Shown: one piece after another, positions 3,654 to 6,439 of the stretch
How positions within the stretch are numbered: the first letter of the stretch is position 1
Layout of the letters: every line of letters begins with the position of its first letter
Position numbers and translations under genes: made by a program
Notes under the pieces: generated by a model
Told to the model about the DNA's origin: nothing
The model's input: the letters and a program-made list of their open reading frames with translations, nothing else
Databases searched by the model: none
Assembly (NCBI GenBank): GCA_902626605.1
Contig: CACOFZ010000001.1
Location: 1-32,500, forward strand
Reading direction: 5' to 3'
Source of the DNA: an uncultured PS1 clade bacterium
Lineage (GTDB): Bacteria > Pseudomonadota > Alphaproteobacteria > MED-G09
Length of the DNA stretch: 32,500 nucleotides

Positions 3654-4651
3654 TGAAGATTTTTCATTTTCTATTTTCACTAATATTACTTTCATCATGT
3701 TCAATTTTTGAAGATGAAGTTTTTAGAAATACTGATAGTAAGGCAATGTTGGAAGATGATATTATTAATGAAAAAAAGTCTCCGCCTTTTAGCTTTTTTA
3801 GAGCTTTACAATCTGTTGAAAGAGATGAGATTGAAATATCAAATGAATATAATAGCATCTCTGAAAAACCACTGGGTTATGCTTCTTGGATCGGTCATTC
3901 ATCTTTTATAATTAATAATTATGATCTAAACATTATTACAGATCCTATTTTTTCAAATAGGGCATCACCATTATCCTTTATAGGACCTAAAAGATTAATT
4001 AAACCAGCAATAGGTTATAAAGATCTTCCAAAAATTGATGTAGTTGTAATTAGCCATAATCATTATGACCACTTAGACTTAGATAGTGTTAAGAAATTAA
4101 ATAGAATTAACCCAGATACAATATTTCTTGTACCTTTAAAACTTAAAAATTGGTTTTTAAATAGAGGCATAAAAAATGTTTTTGAATTTGAATGGTGGCA
4201 ATCAAAAACAATTAAAAATACAACTTTTACATTTGTTCCTGTTCAACATTGGTCTAGACGAGGACTTTTTGATAAGAACAAAAGTTTATGGGGAGGCTGG
4301 TGGATTGAAAATACAAAAACCAAATTGATTCATTTAGGTGATACTGGTTATTCAAAGGATTTTATTGAAATAAATAAAAGATTGGGAAATCCTGATATAG
4401 CATTCATTCCTATAGGCGCATACGAACCAAGAAGGATTATGAAAAAAAGTCATATGAATCCACAAGAGGCATTAGATGCTGCTCTTGACTTAGGTGCAAA
4501 AAAATCCGTTGGAATGCATTGGGGAACATTTATTCTTACAACTGAACCAATTAAGGAACCAAAAATTATTCTCAATGATTTAATTGCAAAAAATAATTTT
4601 GATGATGATTTTTTTGTGACTATTAAACCAGGTAAAATTTATAAATTTTAG
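3653..4651 (+). CDS. MBL-fold metallo-hydrolase lipoprotein, NAPE-PLD/UlaG-like
   Basis: This 332-residue protein starts with a lipoprotein signal peptide: a short hydrophobic core and the lipobox LSSC, with Cys16 as the likely lipidated residue. The rest is a metallo-beta-lactamase fold of the COG2220 type. Visible marks are WIGHSSFII, TDPIFSNRASP, GPKR, the zinc motif H135-N-H-x-D-H140, VPVQHWSRRG, LWGGWWI, HLGDTGY, IGAYEPR and GMHWGTF. These resemble N-acyl-phosphatidylethanolamine phospholipase D relatives, so an esterase or phosphodiesterase acting on lipids or another amphiphile at the membrane is likely; the substrate is unknown. It is coupled to panD by a TAATG overlap, though no pantothenate step needs such an enzyme. 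Confidence 0.85.
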   Translation: MKIFHFLFSLILLSSCSIFEDEVFRNTDSKAMLEDDIINEKKSPPFSFFRALQSVERDEIEISNEYNSISEKPLGYASWIGHSSFIINNYDLNIITDPIFSNRASPLSFIGPKRLIKPAIGYKDLPKIDVVVISHNHYDHLDLDSVKKLNRINPDTIFLVPLKLKNWFLNRGIKNVFEFEWWQSKTIKNTTFTFVPVQHWSRRGLFDKNKSLWGGWWIENTKTKLIHLGDTGYSKDFIEINKRLGNPDIAFIPIGAYEPRRIMKKSHMNPQEALDAALDLGAKKSVGMHWGTFILTTEPIKEPKIILNDLIAKNNFDDDFFVTIKPGKIYKF

Positions 4652-4657
4652 TTAGAA

Positions 4658-4792
4658 CTAAAAAATAATTGATAAAAATTTAGTTAAAATTTTATCAAGA
4701 GAAACAAGAGAGTTTAATCTATTATTTTCAATAAGACTTAACTCTTCTGATAGTTTTGGATCGTTAAAATTTACTATACTTTCTTTAACCAT
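4658..4792 (-). CDS. possible small protein, 44 residues
   Basis: An open frame on the minus strand begins at an ATG (4792) and ends at TAG, reading MVKESIVNFNDPKLSEELSL and ending LTKFLSIIF. I do not recognise it. Its N-terminal half is polar with an acidic stretch and the C-terminal half is an amphipathic or hydrophobic helix. Support: its stop lies six bases from the stop of the convergent hydrolase gene, as for the other convergent pairs in this window, and it would otherwise leave the only large gap. It follows two striking hairpins. Against it: it is short, the DNA is AT-rich, and the ribosome site (AAGG, far upstream) is weak. Confidence 0.35.
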   Translation of the reverse strand: MVKESIVNFNDPKLSEELSLIENNRLNSLVSLDKILTKFLSIIF

Positions 4793-4810
4793 TTTTACTT
4801 AAAACCTTTT

Positions 4811-4859
4811 TTGATAATCCCTTCCTTGAAATAGGAGGGAGGATGGAAGGGATTATCAA
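4811..4859. repeat. perfect 15-bp hairpin with GGA-rich/CCT-rich loop (copy 1)
   Basis: The left arm TTGATAATCCCTTCC (4811-4825) and right arm GGAAGGGATTATCAA (4845-4859) are perfect inverted complements around a 19-base loop (4826-4844) containing AGGAGGGAGGAT. On the minus strand the loop contains ATCCTCCCTCCT. It is the sister of the hairpin at 4894-4941; the arms share AATCCCTTC/GAAGGGATT. No T-run follows directly on either strand, so it is not a normal intrinsic terminator. It could be a structured RNA element or a protein-binding palindrome; the strand is not known. Confidence 0.8.
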
Positions 4860-4893
4860 TACTTTAATCATTTTTTTACTCAACAAATTTTTT

Positions 4894-4941
4894 GGACAAT
4901 CCCTTCAAGGGAATGGGAGGGGGGGAAGGAAGGGATTGTCC
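4894..4941. repeat. perfect 13-bp hairpin with G-tract loop, possible quadruplex (copy 2)
   Basis: The arms GGACAATCCCTTC (4894-4906) and GAAGGGATTGTCC (4929-4941) pair perfectly. The 22-base loop (4907-4928) carries GGG, GGG and a run of seven G. Together with the GGG of the right arm this fits the pattern of four G-tracts of three or more with short spacers, i.e. a possible G-quadruplex on the plus strand. The minus strand is a C/T-only tract over most of the loop. In DNA of roughly 30% GC this is a marked composition island. See the separate finding on compensatory changes relative to copy 1. Confidence 0.8.
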
Positions 4942-4972
4942 GTTATGTTACAACCAATGGGTTGAAACTTAA

Positions 4973-5281
4973 TTATTTAAAATCAGCTCTAAATGCAGTG
5001 TAAGCACCATTTTTACTTTGGATTGACCTAACATCTTCATAAAGAACACAGTAAGCACCATTAGAATTTAAACTGTAAGCTTCACAGCTTGATCTTGTCT
5101 TGCAAGCATTTAAGCAGTTATCAGCAATTCTATATTTTGCAGTTGTTTTGTAAGAAAGAATTTTTCCACCAGTGACTATCACTTCATTTTTGCTATTTGA
5201 AATTTCTGCAAATGCAGGCGAGATAGCAACAAAAACTGAAAGAAATAATCCAGCAATAAAAATATTTTTTAACAAAGACAT
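4973..5281 (-). CDS. small secreted Cys-rich protein, PAN/apple-like
   Basis: The start at 5281 is preferred over the in-frame ATG at 5293 because GGAG sits six bases before it. The product is 102 residues with a clear Sec signal peptide ending in AFA (cleavage after residue 25). The mature part of about 77 residues has four cysteines (56, 60, 66, 78) in the pattern C-x3-C-x5-C-x11-C with EAYSLN and CVLYEDV. This resembles a short PAN/apple-type module, known for binding proteins or carbohydrates outside the cytoplasm; the assignment is tentative. It should reside in the periplasm or on the surface. It is divergent from the LysR gene and followed by the two hairpins. Confidence 0.7.
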   Translation of the reverse strand: MSLLKNIFIAGLFLSVFVAISPAFAEISNSKNEVIVTGGKILSYKTTAKYRIADNCLNACKTRSSCEAYSLNSNGAYCVLYEDVRSIQSKNGAYTAFRADFK

Positions 5282-5293
5282 AATCAACTCCAT

Positions 5294-5413
5294 AATCTTG
5301 ATTAGTGTTATATGACATTATGCTATTATTTATCAAATTAATTATATAAATGTTTACTATTTATTTAATAAATGATAATATATTTATATTATTAATTAAA
5401 AGGTATTTATATT
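5294..5413. promoter_or_regulatory. divergent promoter region, PAN-like gene / LysR gene
   Basis: This very AT-rich spacer must hold promoters for both divergent genes. Two inverted repeats are visible: TAATC-TT-GATTA at 5293-5304, at the leader of the minus-strand gene, and ATAATATA-TT-TATATTAT at 5375-5392, just before the LysR gene. LysR regulators usually bind such dyads in the divergent spacer and repress themselves. In DNA this AT-rich short palindromes are common, so operator status is only a suggestion. AAAGG at 5399-5403 is the ribosome site of the LysR gene. Confidence 0.35.
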
Positions 5414-6439
5414 ATGAATTTATCAAGAATAGATTTAAATCTTCTCCTAGTTTTTACATCAATTTATAATGAAAAAACAATAACTAAAGCAGCTGATAAG
5501 CTTAATTTATCACAATCCGCAGTAAGTAATGCTCTTAACAGATTAAGGTATACACTAGATGATGATTTATTTTTTAGATCATCAGACATGATGAAACCAA
5601 CAAAAAAAGCAGAAGACTTATATTATCCAATTCAAAATGCCCTTGACTCAATTCAGTCATCTCTGAGTGATGAGGAGTTTAATCCTGCAAAATCAGATAG
5701 ACTTTTTAAGTTTTGTTTACCTGATATTGCGGCAGGAAGAATTTTTCCTCAACTTGCACAAGTATTTCAAGAAGAGGCTCCTAATATTCAAGTATCTTCC
5801 GTTTCAACCTCAAAAGGTGATTTAGAAAAATTAAAAAATCAGGAGTTAGATTTTATTATTTCATCTGATGAAGGACTTCGATCTGAATTAAAATCATATT
5901 CCGATGAAAAGTTTGACGAACATTTTAATAGTTTTCTTATTTATAAAGATCGCCCTCTTTGTGTAGGTAGAAAAGGAAATCCTTTTTTTGACAAAAATGG
6001 TGAAATAAGTCTCGAAAATTATACAGCAGCAAATCACGTTCATGTTTCTTATGACGGAACAATTGATAGCCCTGTAAATGATTATTTAAATGATATTGGA
6101 AAAAAAAGAAATATTACCATGTCTGTCAATTATGTATCAGTTGCAAAGGAAATCATTCGTGCCTCAGATTATTTAATAACTTTATCAGGACATCTAGCTT
6201 CATACTTTAACAAAGCTAATAATTTTGTTGTTGCTCCTATGCCCTTTGATACAAATGAATATTCCGTTCGTCTATTTTGGAATAAGCGATCAGAAAATGA
6301 TGCAGCTCATGCATGGATGCTGGGAAATTTATCCAGAATACAGGAAAAGAACTTTGGATTAGATGGTGATAATGTTGATCATTATTACACCGATCCAGAT
6401 AATAGATATTCTGTTGTAGGGTCGAATTCTCAAACTTAG
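5414..6439 (+). CDS. LysR-family transcriptional regulator (NodD-like group)
   Basis: This is a 341-residue LysR-type regulator. Residues 1-65 form the winged helix-turn-helix: the opening MNLSRIDLNLLLVFTSIYNEK, TKAADKLNLSQSAVSNALNRLR, and LDDDLFFRSSDMMKPTKKAEDL. The remainder is the two-lobed effector domain (FKFCLPDIAAGRIFPQL... LDFIISSDEGL... YVSVAKEIIRASDYLITL). The opening 'SRIDLNLL' and 'LFFR' with downstream spacing resemble the NodD/SyrM branch. The effector is unknown. The gene is divergent from the PAN-like protein, its most likely target, and its stop abuts the convergent YkoF-like gene with no spacer. Confidence 0.9.
   Translation: MNLSRIDLNLLLVFTSIYNEKTITKAADKLNLSQSAVSNALNRLRYTLDDDLFFRSSDMMKPTKKAEDLYYPIQNALDSIQSSLSDEEFNPAKSDRLFKFCLPDIAAGRIFPQLAQVFQEEAPNIQVSSVSTSKGDLEKLKNQELDFIISSDEGLRSELKSYSDEKFDEHFNSFLIYKDRPLCVGRKGNPFFDKNGEISLENYTAANHVHVSYDGTIDSPVNDYLNDIGKKRNITMSVNYVSVAKEIIRASDYLITLSGHLASYFNKANNFVVAPMPFDTNEYSVRLFWNKRSENDAAHAWMLGNLSRIQEKNFGLDGDNVDHYYTDPDNRYSVVGSNSQT

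Follow-up and report, generated by a model that had tools for sequence, protein, structure and literature searches.

A hairpin RNA, probably regulatory, between a leader ORF and a small ORF in PS1/OCS116-clade Alphaproteobacteria

Introduction

Hairpin RNAs with C-rich loops have been described from several Alphaproteobacteria, and the small RNAs (sRNAs) whose hairpins carry anti-Shine-Dalgarno loops, namely NfeR1/alpha-r14, SmelA075/099, CcsR and the 'cuckoo' RNAs, appear by analogy to be the closest functional counterparts of the element treated here. NfeR1/alpha-r14 and SmelA075/SmelA099 of Sinorhizobium, of the 'cuckoo RNA' family, are composed of tandem hairpins that vary in number; in RNAs of the NfeR1 type the C-rich loops of anti-Shine-Dalgarno type are kept and the stems diverge, and NfeR1 is activated by the LysR-type regulator LsrB (PMC3927594, PMC10746234). 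General background on LysR-type regulators of sRNAs is also available (PMC12595884, PMC7486931). In Rhodobacter sphaeroides, the four tandem RNAs CcsR1-4 share one operon with the gene for the small protein CcaF1 (PMC10253847). GsrN of Caulobacter is a sigma-T-dependent sRNA with its own terminator, and its best-conserved part is a C-rich hairpin loop that pairs with G-rich sites in mRNAs (PMC5869019). Two further systems link a leader ORF to the control of a downstream gene: the cutF-cutO locus of Rhodobacter capsulatus, where an exported leader ORF is followed by an intercistronic stem-loop and the controlled ORF (PMC9973294), and the DUF1127-uORF, a precedent for leader-coupled control (PMC12218461).

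The DNA analysed here, referred to as the window, is a stretch of 32,500 nucleotides from a genome of 1.29 Mb that is AT-rich by reading, and its lineage can be inferred to be that of the marine PS1/OCS116 Alphaproteobacteria. A previous sequence-only reading of the window had singled out two neighboring hairpins whose stems differ by matched changes. None of the open-licence papers listed for noncoding RNA of the OCS116/PS1 clade (20 of 822 and 10 of 19,986) gave an account of this element.

Organization of the locus

The hairpins are part of a small array with a constant order, as in all 15 genomes with a hairpin a divergent LysR gene is followed by a leader ORF, the hairpin or hairpins, and a short ORF (sORF). 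The LysR-family regulator occupies positions 5414 to 6439 of the plus strand (Pfam HTH_1 and LysR_substrate) and shows 49-52% identity to its counterparts in the other two genera; its best NCBIfam resemblances, BsrA and LeuO, are both below cut-off. Between it and the leader lies an intergenic region (5294 to 5413) that, from the gene layout, is the likely promoter region, and promoter-like sites over 4500-5500 show no excess (six found, 6.5 expected).

The leader ORF (4973 to 5281, minus strand) has a signal-peptide-like start and a PAN-like C-terminal part. It encodes 102 amino acids from the start that is common to the relatives, or 106 from an ATG at 5293, and its PAN match in the window barely reaches, or slightly passes, the Pfam cut-off (E 0.0002). 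Leader lengths vary considerably, with 101-102 amino acids in six genomes, 53, 58 and 43 in G001, G003 and G007, respectively, 25 in the five genomes of genus g2, and 34 in the genome of genus g3; the PAN part is missing from the leader in G001, G003, G007, the five g2 genomes and g3. A signal-peptide-like N-terminus was judged by eye to be present in 15 of 15 genomes.

The unannotated sORF (4658 to 4792, minus strand) encodes 44 amino acids and starts 18 nt after the proximal hairpin. Wherever the hairpin occurs (15 genomes), a counterpart of 44-53 amino acids is found; the sORF has no Pfam or NCBIfam match, and three of the sORFs tested have no Pfam hit at E values up to 10. The ratio of nonsynonymous to synonymous change (pN/pS), examined in g1 and g2 with the single g3 genome left out, is 0.40 in g1 and 0.06 in g2 for the sORF and 0.15 and 0.11 for the signal-peptide part of the leader, against 0.84 to 4.64 for shifted-frame controls (one control was undefined, having zero synonymous changes). 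By this measure, both the signal-peptide part of the leader and the sORF are evidently under coding constraint. The hairpins had been said to fill the only gap above 300 bases in the window; the gap stands when ORFs of at least 80 amino acids are counted (4652-4972), but it is not empty, as the conserved 44-amino-acid ORF lies inside it. The gene beyond the sORF varies: in the window it is a convergent gene with a metallo-beta-lactamase fold, and in G013 and G017 it is a same-strand gene that we take from its look to be SMP-30-like.

The hairpins in the window

Hairpin h1, the sORF-proximal copy, spans positions 4811 to 4859 on the minus strand, with arms at 4811-4825 and 4845-4859; all 15 of its 15 stem positions are paired, and the 19 nt between the arms include CCUCCCUCC. 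Hairpin h2, the ancestral-type copy, spans 4894 to 4941 on the same strand, with arms at 4894-4906 and 4929-4941, a stem paired at 13 of 13 positions, and a C-rich 22-nt loop, CUUCCCCCCCUCCCAUUCCCUU; 14 further genomes have hairpins at this locus. The initial description of the pair is borne out by the coordinates: h1 and h2 are separated by a spacer of 34 nt (4860 to 4893), their arms have AATCCCTTC/GAAGGGATT in common, and, counted outward from AATCCC, copy 1 has T-A at both the first and the fourth pair, where copy 2 has C-G and G-C, respectively.

The predicted minus-strand fold of the region consists of h1, h2 and a small hairpin at about 4951-4964. Minus-strand folding is better than that of dinucleotide shuffles (z = -4.46, with none of 200 as good); for the plus strand, z is -2.22 and three of 200 are as good. 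The small hairpin, CAACC-CAUU-GGUUG (4951 to 4964, minus strand), was recognized from the fold and by comparison and lies just 3′ of the leader stop. In G006, G007 and G009 its place is taken by stems of the CGAUC/GAUCG type, and CAACC/GGUUG can be read by eye in five genomes where the script picked an overlapping G-U stem. The start of the first core stem lies 24-66 nt downstream of the leader stop codon (the window has 31), and in each of the 15 genomes the distance from the end of the last core stem to the sORF start is 11-25 nt. At its 3′ side on the minus strand, the stem is followed by an A-rich linker or A-run, not a T-run. The earlier remark that the hairpins are not plain terminators agrees with the absence of a T-tract after h1 and h2 on both strands and with a count of zero terminator-like sites over 4500-5500. 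Separately, an AT-rich inverted repeat at 4669-4698 overlaps the 3′ end of the sORF and is followed by a minus-strand T-run; it is a possible weak terminator that was not scored as one.

Covariation and strand

A first alignment of 13 hairpin units, all from genus g1, was the basis of covariance model R1, in which h1 scores 63.8 bits, being part of the model by construction. Among these g1 units, 9 of 14 stem pairs show changes on both sides, and none of 500 shuffles is as high. A larger alignment comprises 19 units, 16 of them distinct; here both-sided changes are found in 10 of 14 pairs and 97.3% of 224 cells are paired, against a shuffled mean of 4.8 pairs and a maximum of 4 for slid stems, and none of 500 shuffles reaches either value, all of these counts being made without tree correction. 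Pair 9-53 is U-A, not C-G, in h1 of the window, in G007b and in genus g2, such that this change recurs. The covariation that had been proposed as a check is thus far above the shuffled and slid controls, which carry no tree correction either.

Watson-Crick pairs account for 243 of the 266 cells (19 rows, some identical) when these are read on the minus strand; the remainder are 17 G-U pairs, 2 A-C and 4 other mismatches. A G-U pair is tolerated in RNA, and the opposite strand shows A-C at the same place. The preponderance of G-U (17) over A-C (2) on the minus strand therefore suggests that selection acts on minus-strand RNA, and the minus strand is also the strand of both flanking small ORFs. 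The antisense unit has the lower fold energy in 10 of 19 units, so that energy alone picks no strand. Selection on an RNA fold or on a strict palindrome had been offered as the explanation of the matched changes, and the G-U bias favors the former, as minus-strand RNA, over a DNA palindrome. As shown by comparison of the genomes, the hairpins are a selected RNA structure, most likely of the minus strand, located between the leader ORF and the sORF, beside the divergent LysR gene, and it is likely that they represent a working regulatory RNA element hitherto undescribed.

Distribution

Of the 10 genomes of the genus, eight, the window's own among them, gave the locus in a DNA search; G007, which was not caught by this search, contains three tandem copies. 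The 18 family genomes scanned with R1 make up the entire order sampled and fall into genera labelled g1, g2 and g3. At E values up to 0.05, R1 has matches in 15 of the 18, which places homologous hairpins in 14 of the 17 genomes other than the window's own; no match at this threshold was obtained in G002, G011 and G014 (79, 82 and 62% complete, respectively). Outside the genus on which it was trained, R1 matches five g2 genomes (E 2e-9 to 2.6e-8) and the g3 genome (0.0036), all at the same locus as in g1. Each matching genome has one strong locus (150 candidates scored per genome with R1), and this locus carries one, two or three copies, with stem pairing intact in every copy: 12 of 15 genomes have a single hairpin and three have several.

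Alignment of the LysR protein against named genomes gave 18 loci, 15 at 44-96% identity and three distant ones at 26-29%. The 15 closer loci are titled PS1-clade, OCS116, MED-G09, 'Rhodobiaceae', 'Hyphomicrobiales' or plain 'Alphaproteobacteria'. A hairpin was found with model R2 in 14 of them, and the fifteenth, L205, starts within the LysR gene; among the three distant loci, L207 had no match to R2. With stricter filters, R2 matched eight of 385 genomes of the class, five from the PS1 family and three weak (L212-L214, E 0.001-0.008). From the roughly 900 nt examined around each, which is limited evidence, the weak matches are taken to be due to chance: the loop of L212 is not C-rich, L213 is a GC-rich CT repeat, with a C-rich loop nonetheless, and L214 has CCCCC in its loop but a T-run 3′ of the stem, as in a terminator. 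Within this comparison, the element was found only in Alphaproteobacteria of the PS1/OCS116 clade.

Several marine viral contigs (L010-L014 and others) have hairpins with AATCCCTTC arms that are not related to the element. Matches of this kind number at least 118, at least 69 of them with a loop of 15 nt (for example TTACCTATTTAGGAA), and in the 25 matches listed the loops differ from those of the element; they were set aside as candidates.

Origin of the tandem pair

The start-to-start offset of h1 and h2 is 82-83 bp, and the spacer between them resembles the sORF start region of G001. Aligned with the segment from hairpin to sORF start of that genome, the spacer scores 40, a value reached by none of 2000 shuffles; the match to the window's own sORF start is weaker (37 of 2000 shuffles as good), and the corresponding comparisons with G003, G005 and G004 are unremarkable (683, 113 and 223 of 2000 shuffles, respectively). 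It is likely that h1 and the spacer arose by a local tandem duplication of about 82 bp that took in the sORF start, and the spacer is probably a relic of the hairpin-to-sORF-start segment copied along with h1. Stems of the h2 type are present in G001, G003 and G005, which marks h1 as probably the changed copy, and h1 has kept perfect pairing through two double substitutions. The sequence-only reading had set selection against simple duplication plus drift; preservation of the stem by compensatory change is upheld, but duplication itself probably did take place. The spacers in G006 and G007 are only 11-12 nt long and so point to separate duplications.

The loop and known RNA families

The loops of the 19 units are 19-25 nt long, C-rich and almost without G, and CCUCC occurs in 17 of them. 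Between g1 and g2, identity is 0.78 in the loop core and 0.56 in the stem, as measured in a MAFFT alignment with author-chosen columns (26-36 for the loop core). The loop resembles, by analogy, the anti-Shine-Dalgarno loops of alphaproteobacterial sRNAs, and the canonical loop motif of these, CCUCCUCCC, is present in none of the 19 units. Searches of Rfam 15 at the gathering score gave no matches in the window, and hits obtained with 4640-5000 and with three relatives' loci were all below the gathering score. For DUF1127 (PF06568), none of the 18 family genomes has a hit over the cut-off, and there are two weak hits below it. As CCUCCUCCC and a DUF1127 protein over the cut-off are both missing, the element is not filed as a member of either the cuckoo/alpha-r14 or the CcaF1-CcsR group.

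Possible partners of the loop were considered within the locus and beyond. Within the locus, predicted pairing between the loop and the start region of either the leader or the sORF does not clearly exceed that of shuffles. The pattern TGGGAGG(2-10)ATG has 200 sites in 18 genomes against 97 for a reversed control, an excess that general Shine-Dalgarno usage could explain. Of 30 sampled TGGGAGG sites, five are at plausible gene starts, and three of those are one ortholog. Named by eye, the genes at these starts are presumably CoA-transferase-like (three copies), enoyl-CoA-hydratase-like (one) and oxidoreductase-like (one).

Proposed mechanism and alternatives

The preferred reading, which is given a probability of roughly 0.45, is that the locus would specify one LysR-controlled transcript whose anti-Shine-Dalgarno-like hairpin loops pair in trans with ribosome-binding sites, by analogy with the sRNAs introduced above. 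Leader, hairpins and sORF would be transcribed together as one LysR-controlled unit, in which the hairpins would present an exposed loop, with CCCUCCCA as its core, that resembles the anti-Shine-Dalgarno sequence of 16S rRNA. Other mRNAs would be the partners of this loop, which would pair with their G-rich ribosome-binding sites, either from within its own mRNA or as an sRNA once RNase cutting has freed the module, and extra tandem copies would multiply it, as in the NfeR1 or CcsR RNAs. The stems would serve to keep the loop open and the RNA protected, so that stem letters would be free to change as long as they stay paired and loop letters would have to be retained. Weighed against trans pairing are the predominance of single-hairpin genomes (12 of 15) and a place, 11-25 nt before the sORF, that suits a role in cis too.

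Such a cis role is possible, if less probable. The hairpins would then act as an intercistronic stabilizer that protects or defines the 5′ end of a processed sORF mRNA, perhaps with a protein bound to the loop and with no target in trans. The near-constant distance to the sORF start in all 15 genomes and the A-rich linker 3′ of the stem speak for this, as do the stability of the stems (about -21 to -24 kcal/mol in 18 units, the exception among the 19 being that of G017 at -8.3) and, by reading, the mostly weak Shine-Dalgarno sequences before the sORF. A plain stabilizer, however, leaves unexplained both that the loop is conserved above the stem and that added copies are kept.

The trans-pairing reading can be extended, more doubtfully, to a scheme in which translation or export of the leader would set the number of anti-Shine-Dalgarno-like loops released from a small mRNA that unites an obligatory secretion leader, an expandable array of hairpins with C-rich loops, and a microprotein, with the copy number tuned by duplication and kept by compensation. 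If true, this would be a novel regulatory device of streamlined marine Alphaproteobacteria for retuning translation.

An improbable alternative is a switch of the CutF/CutO or uORF-attenuator kind, in which formation of the small hairpin and the main hairpins, and hence expression of the sORF, would depend on whether the signal-peptide leader is translated or exported. It would account for the retention of the signal-peptide-like start in all 15 genomes even where the PAN part is gone, for the strong coding constraint on this part, and for the position of the small hairpin, which in the window begins 8 nt after the leader stop; CutF (PMC9973294) and the DUF1127-uORF (PMC12218461) are precedents. 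The main hairpin, however, lies 24-66 nt past the stop, beyond the reach of a terminating ribosome, the minimum-energy fold of 4786-4976 (window only) leaves the sORF start region unpaired, and no competing structure was found.

It is very improbable that the element works as DNA, with a G-quadruplex on the plus strand and a cruciform from the palindrome serving replication, recombination or protein binding. The loop complement on the plus strand does have several G-runs, for example GGGAATGGGAGGGGGGG, but a DNA palindrome needs Watson-Crick pairs, against which stand the 17 G-U and 2 A-C on one strand, and its constant position, flanked on both sides by ORFs that show coding constraint, also argues against it. 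A bidirectional intrinsic terminator or a dispersed repeat of the REP/MITE type, suggested by a gap that convergent genes flank in the window, is rejected: terminators on either strand by the missing T-tracts after h1 and h2, the zero count of terminator-like sites and the same-strand, not convergent, next large gene in G013 (g2) and G017 (g3), and dispersed repeats by the single strong locus per matching genome.

Comparison with known systems

The element, a structured RNA that is well supported and unmatched in Rfam, adjoins two small ORFs, one of them with no family match at all, in an ocean lineage that has received little study. It also offers an example of matched changes preserving a stem that had probably been duplicated. 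Its layout is like that of cutF-cutO in that a leader ORF is followed by a stem-loop and an ORF, the leader here being only signal-peptide-like by eye. The cutF-cutO stem hides the Shine-Dalgarno sequence of the next gene, whereas the fold predicted here leaves the sORF start clear of the stem, and conservation is stronger in the loop. With GsrN the element shares a C-rich, well-conserved loop, but no terminator of its own is seen. As in CcsR/CcaF1, a hairpin RNA is tied to a small-protein gene; the partner there is a DUF1127 protein, in contrast to an sORF without a Pfam or NCBIfam match, and the hairpins here precede the sORF. The resemblance to NfeR1 and SmelA075/099 extends to similar loops on divergent stems, a varying number of hairpins and a link to a LysR-type regulator. 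Unlike those RNAs, the loops (19-25 nt) have the core CCCUCCCA and a second C-run in place of CCUCCUCCC, and the element sits between two ORFs at one locus per genome, as a single hairpin in 12 of 15. These likenesses suggest that hairpins with C-rich loops, a strategy of rhizobia and Rhodobacter, are also employed, perhaps with an independent origin, by small marine genomes that gave no DUF1127 hit over the cut-off.
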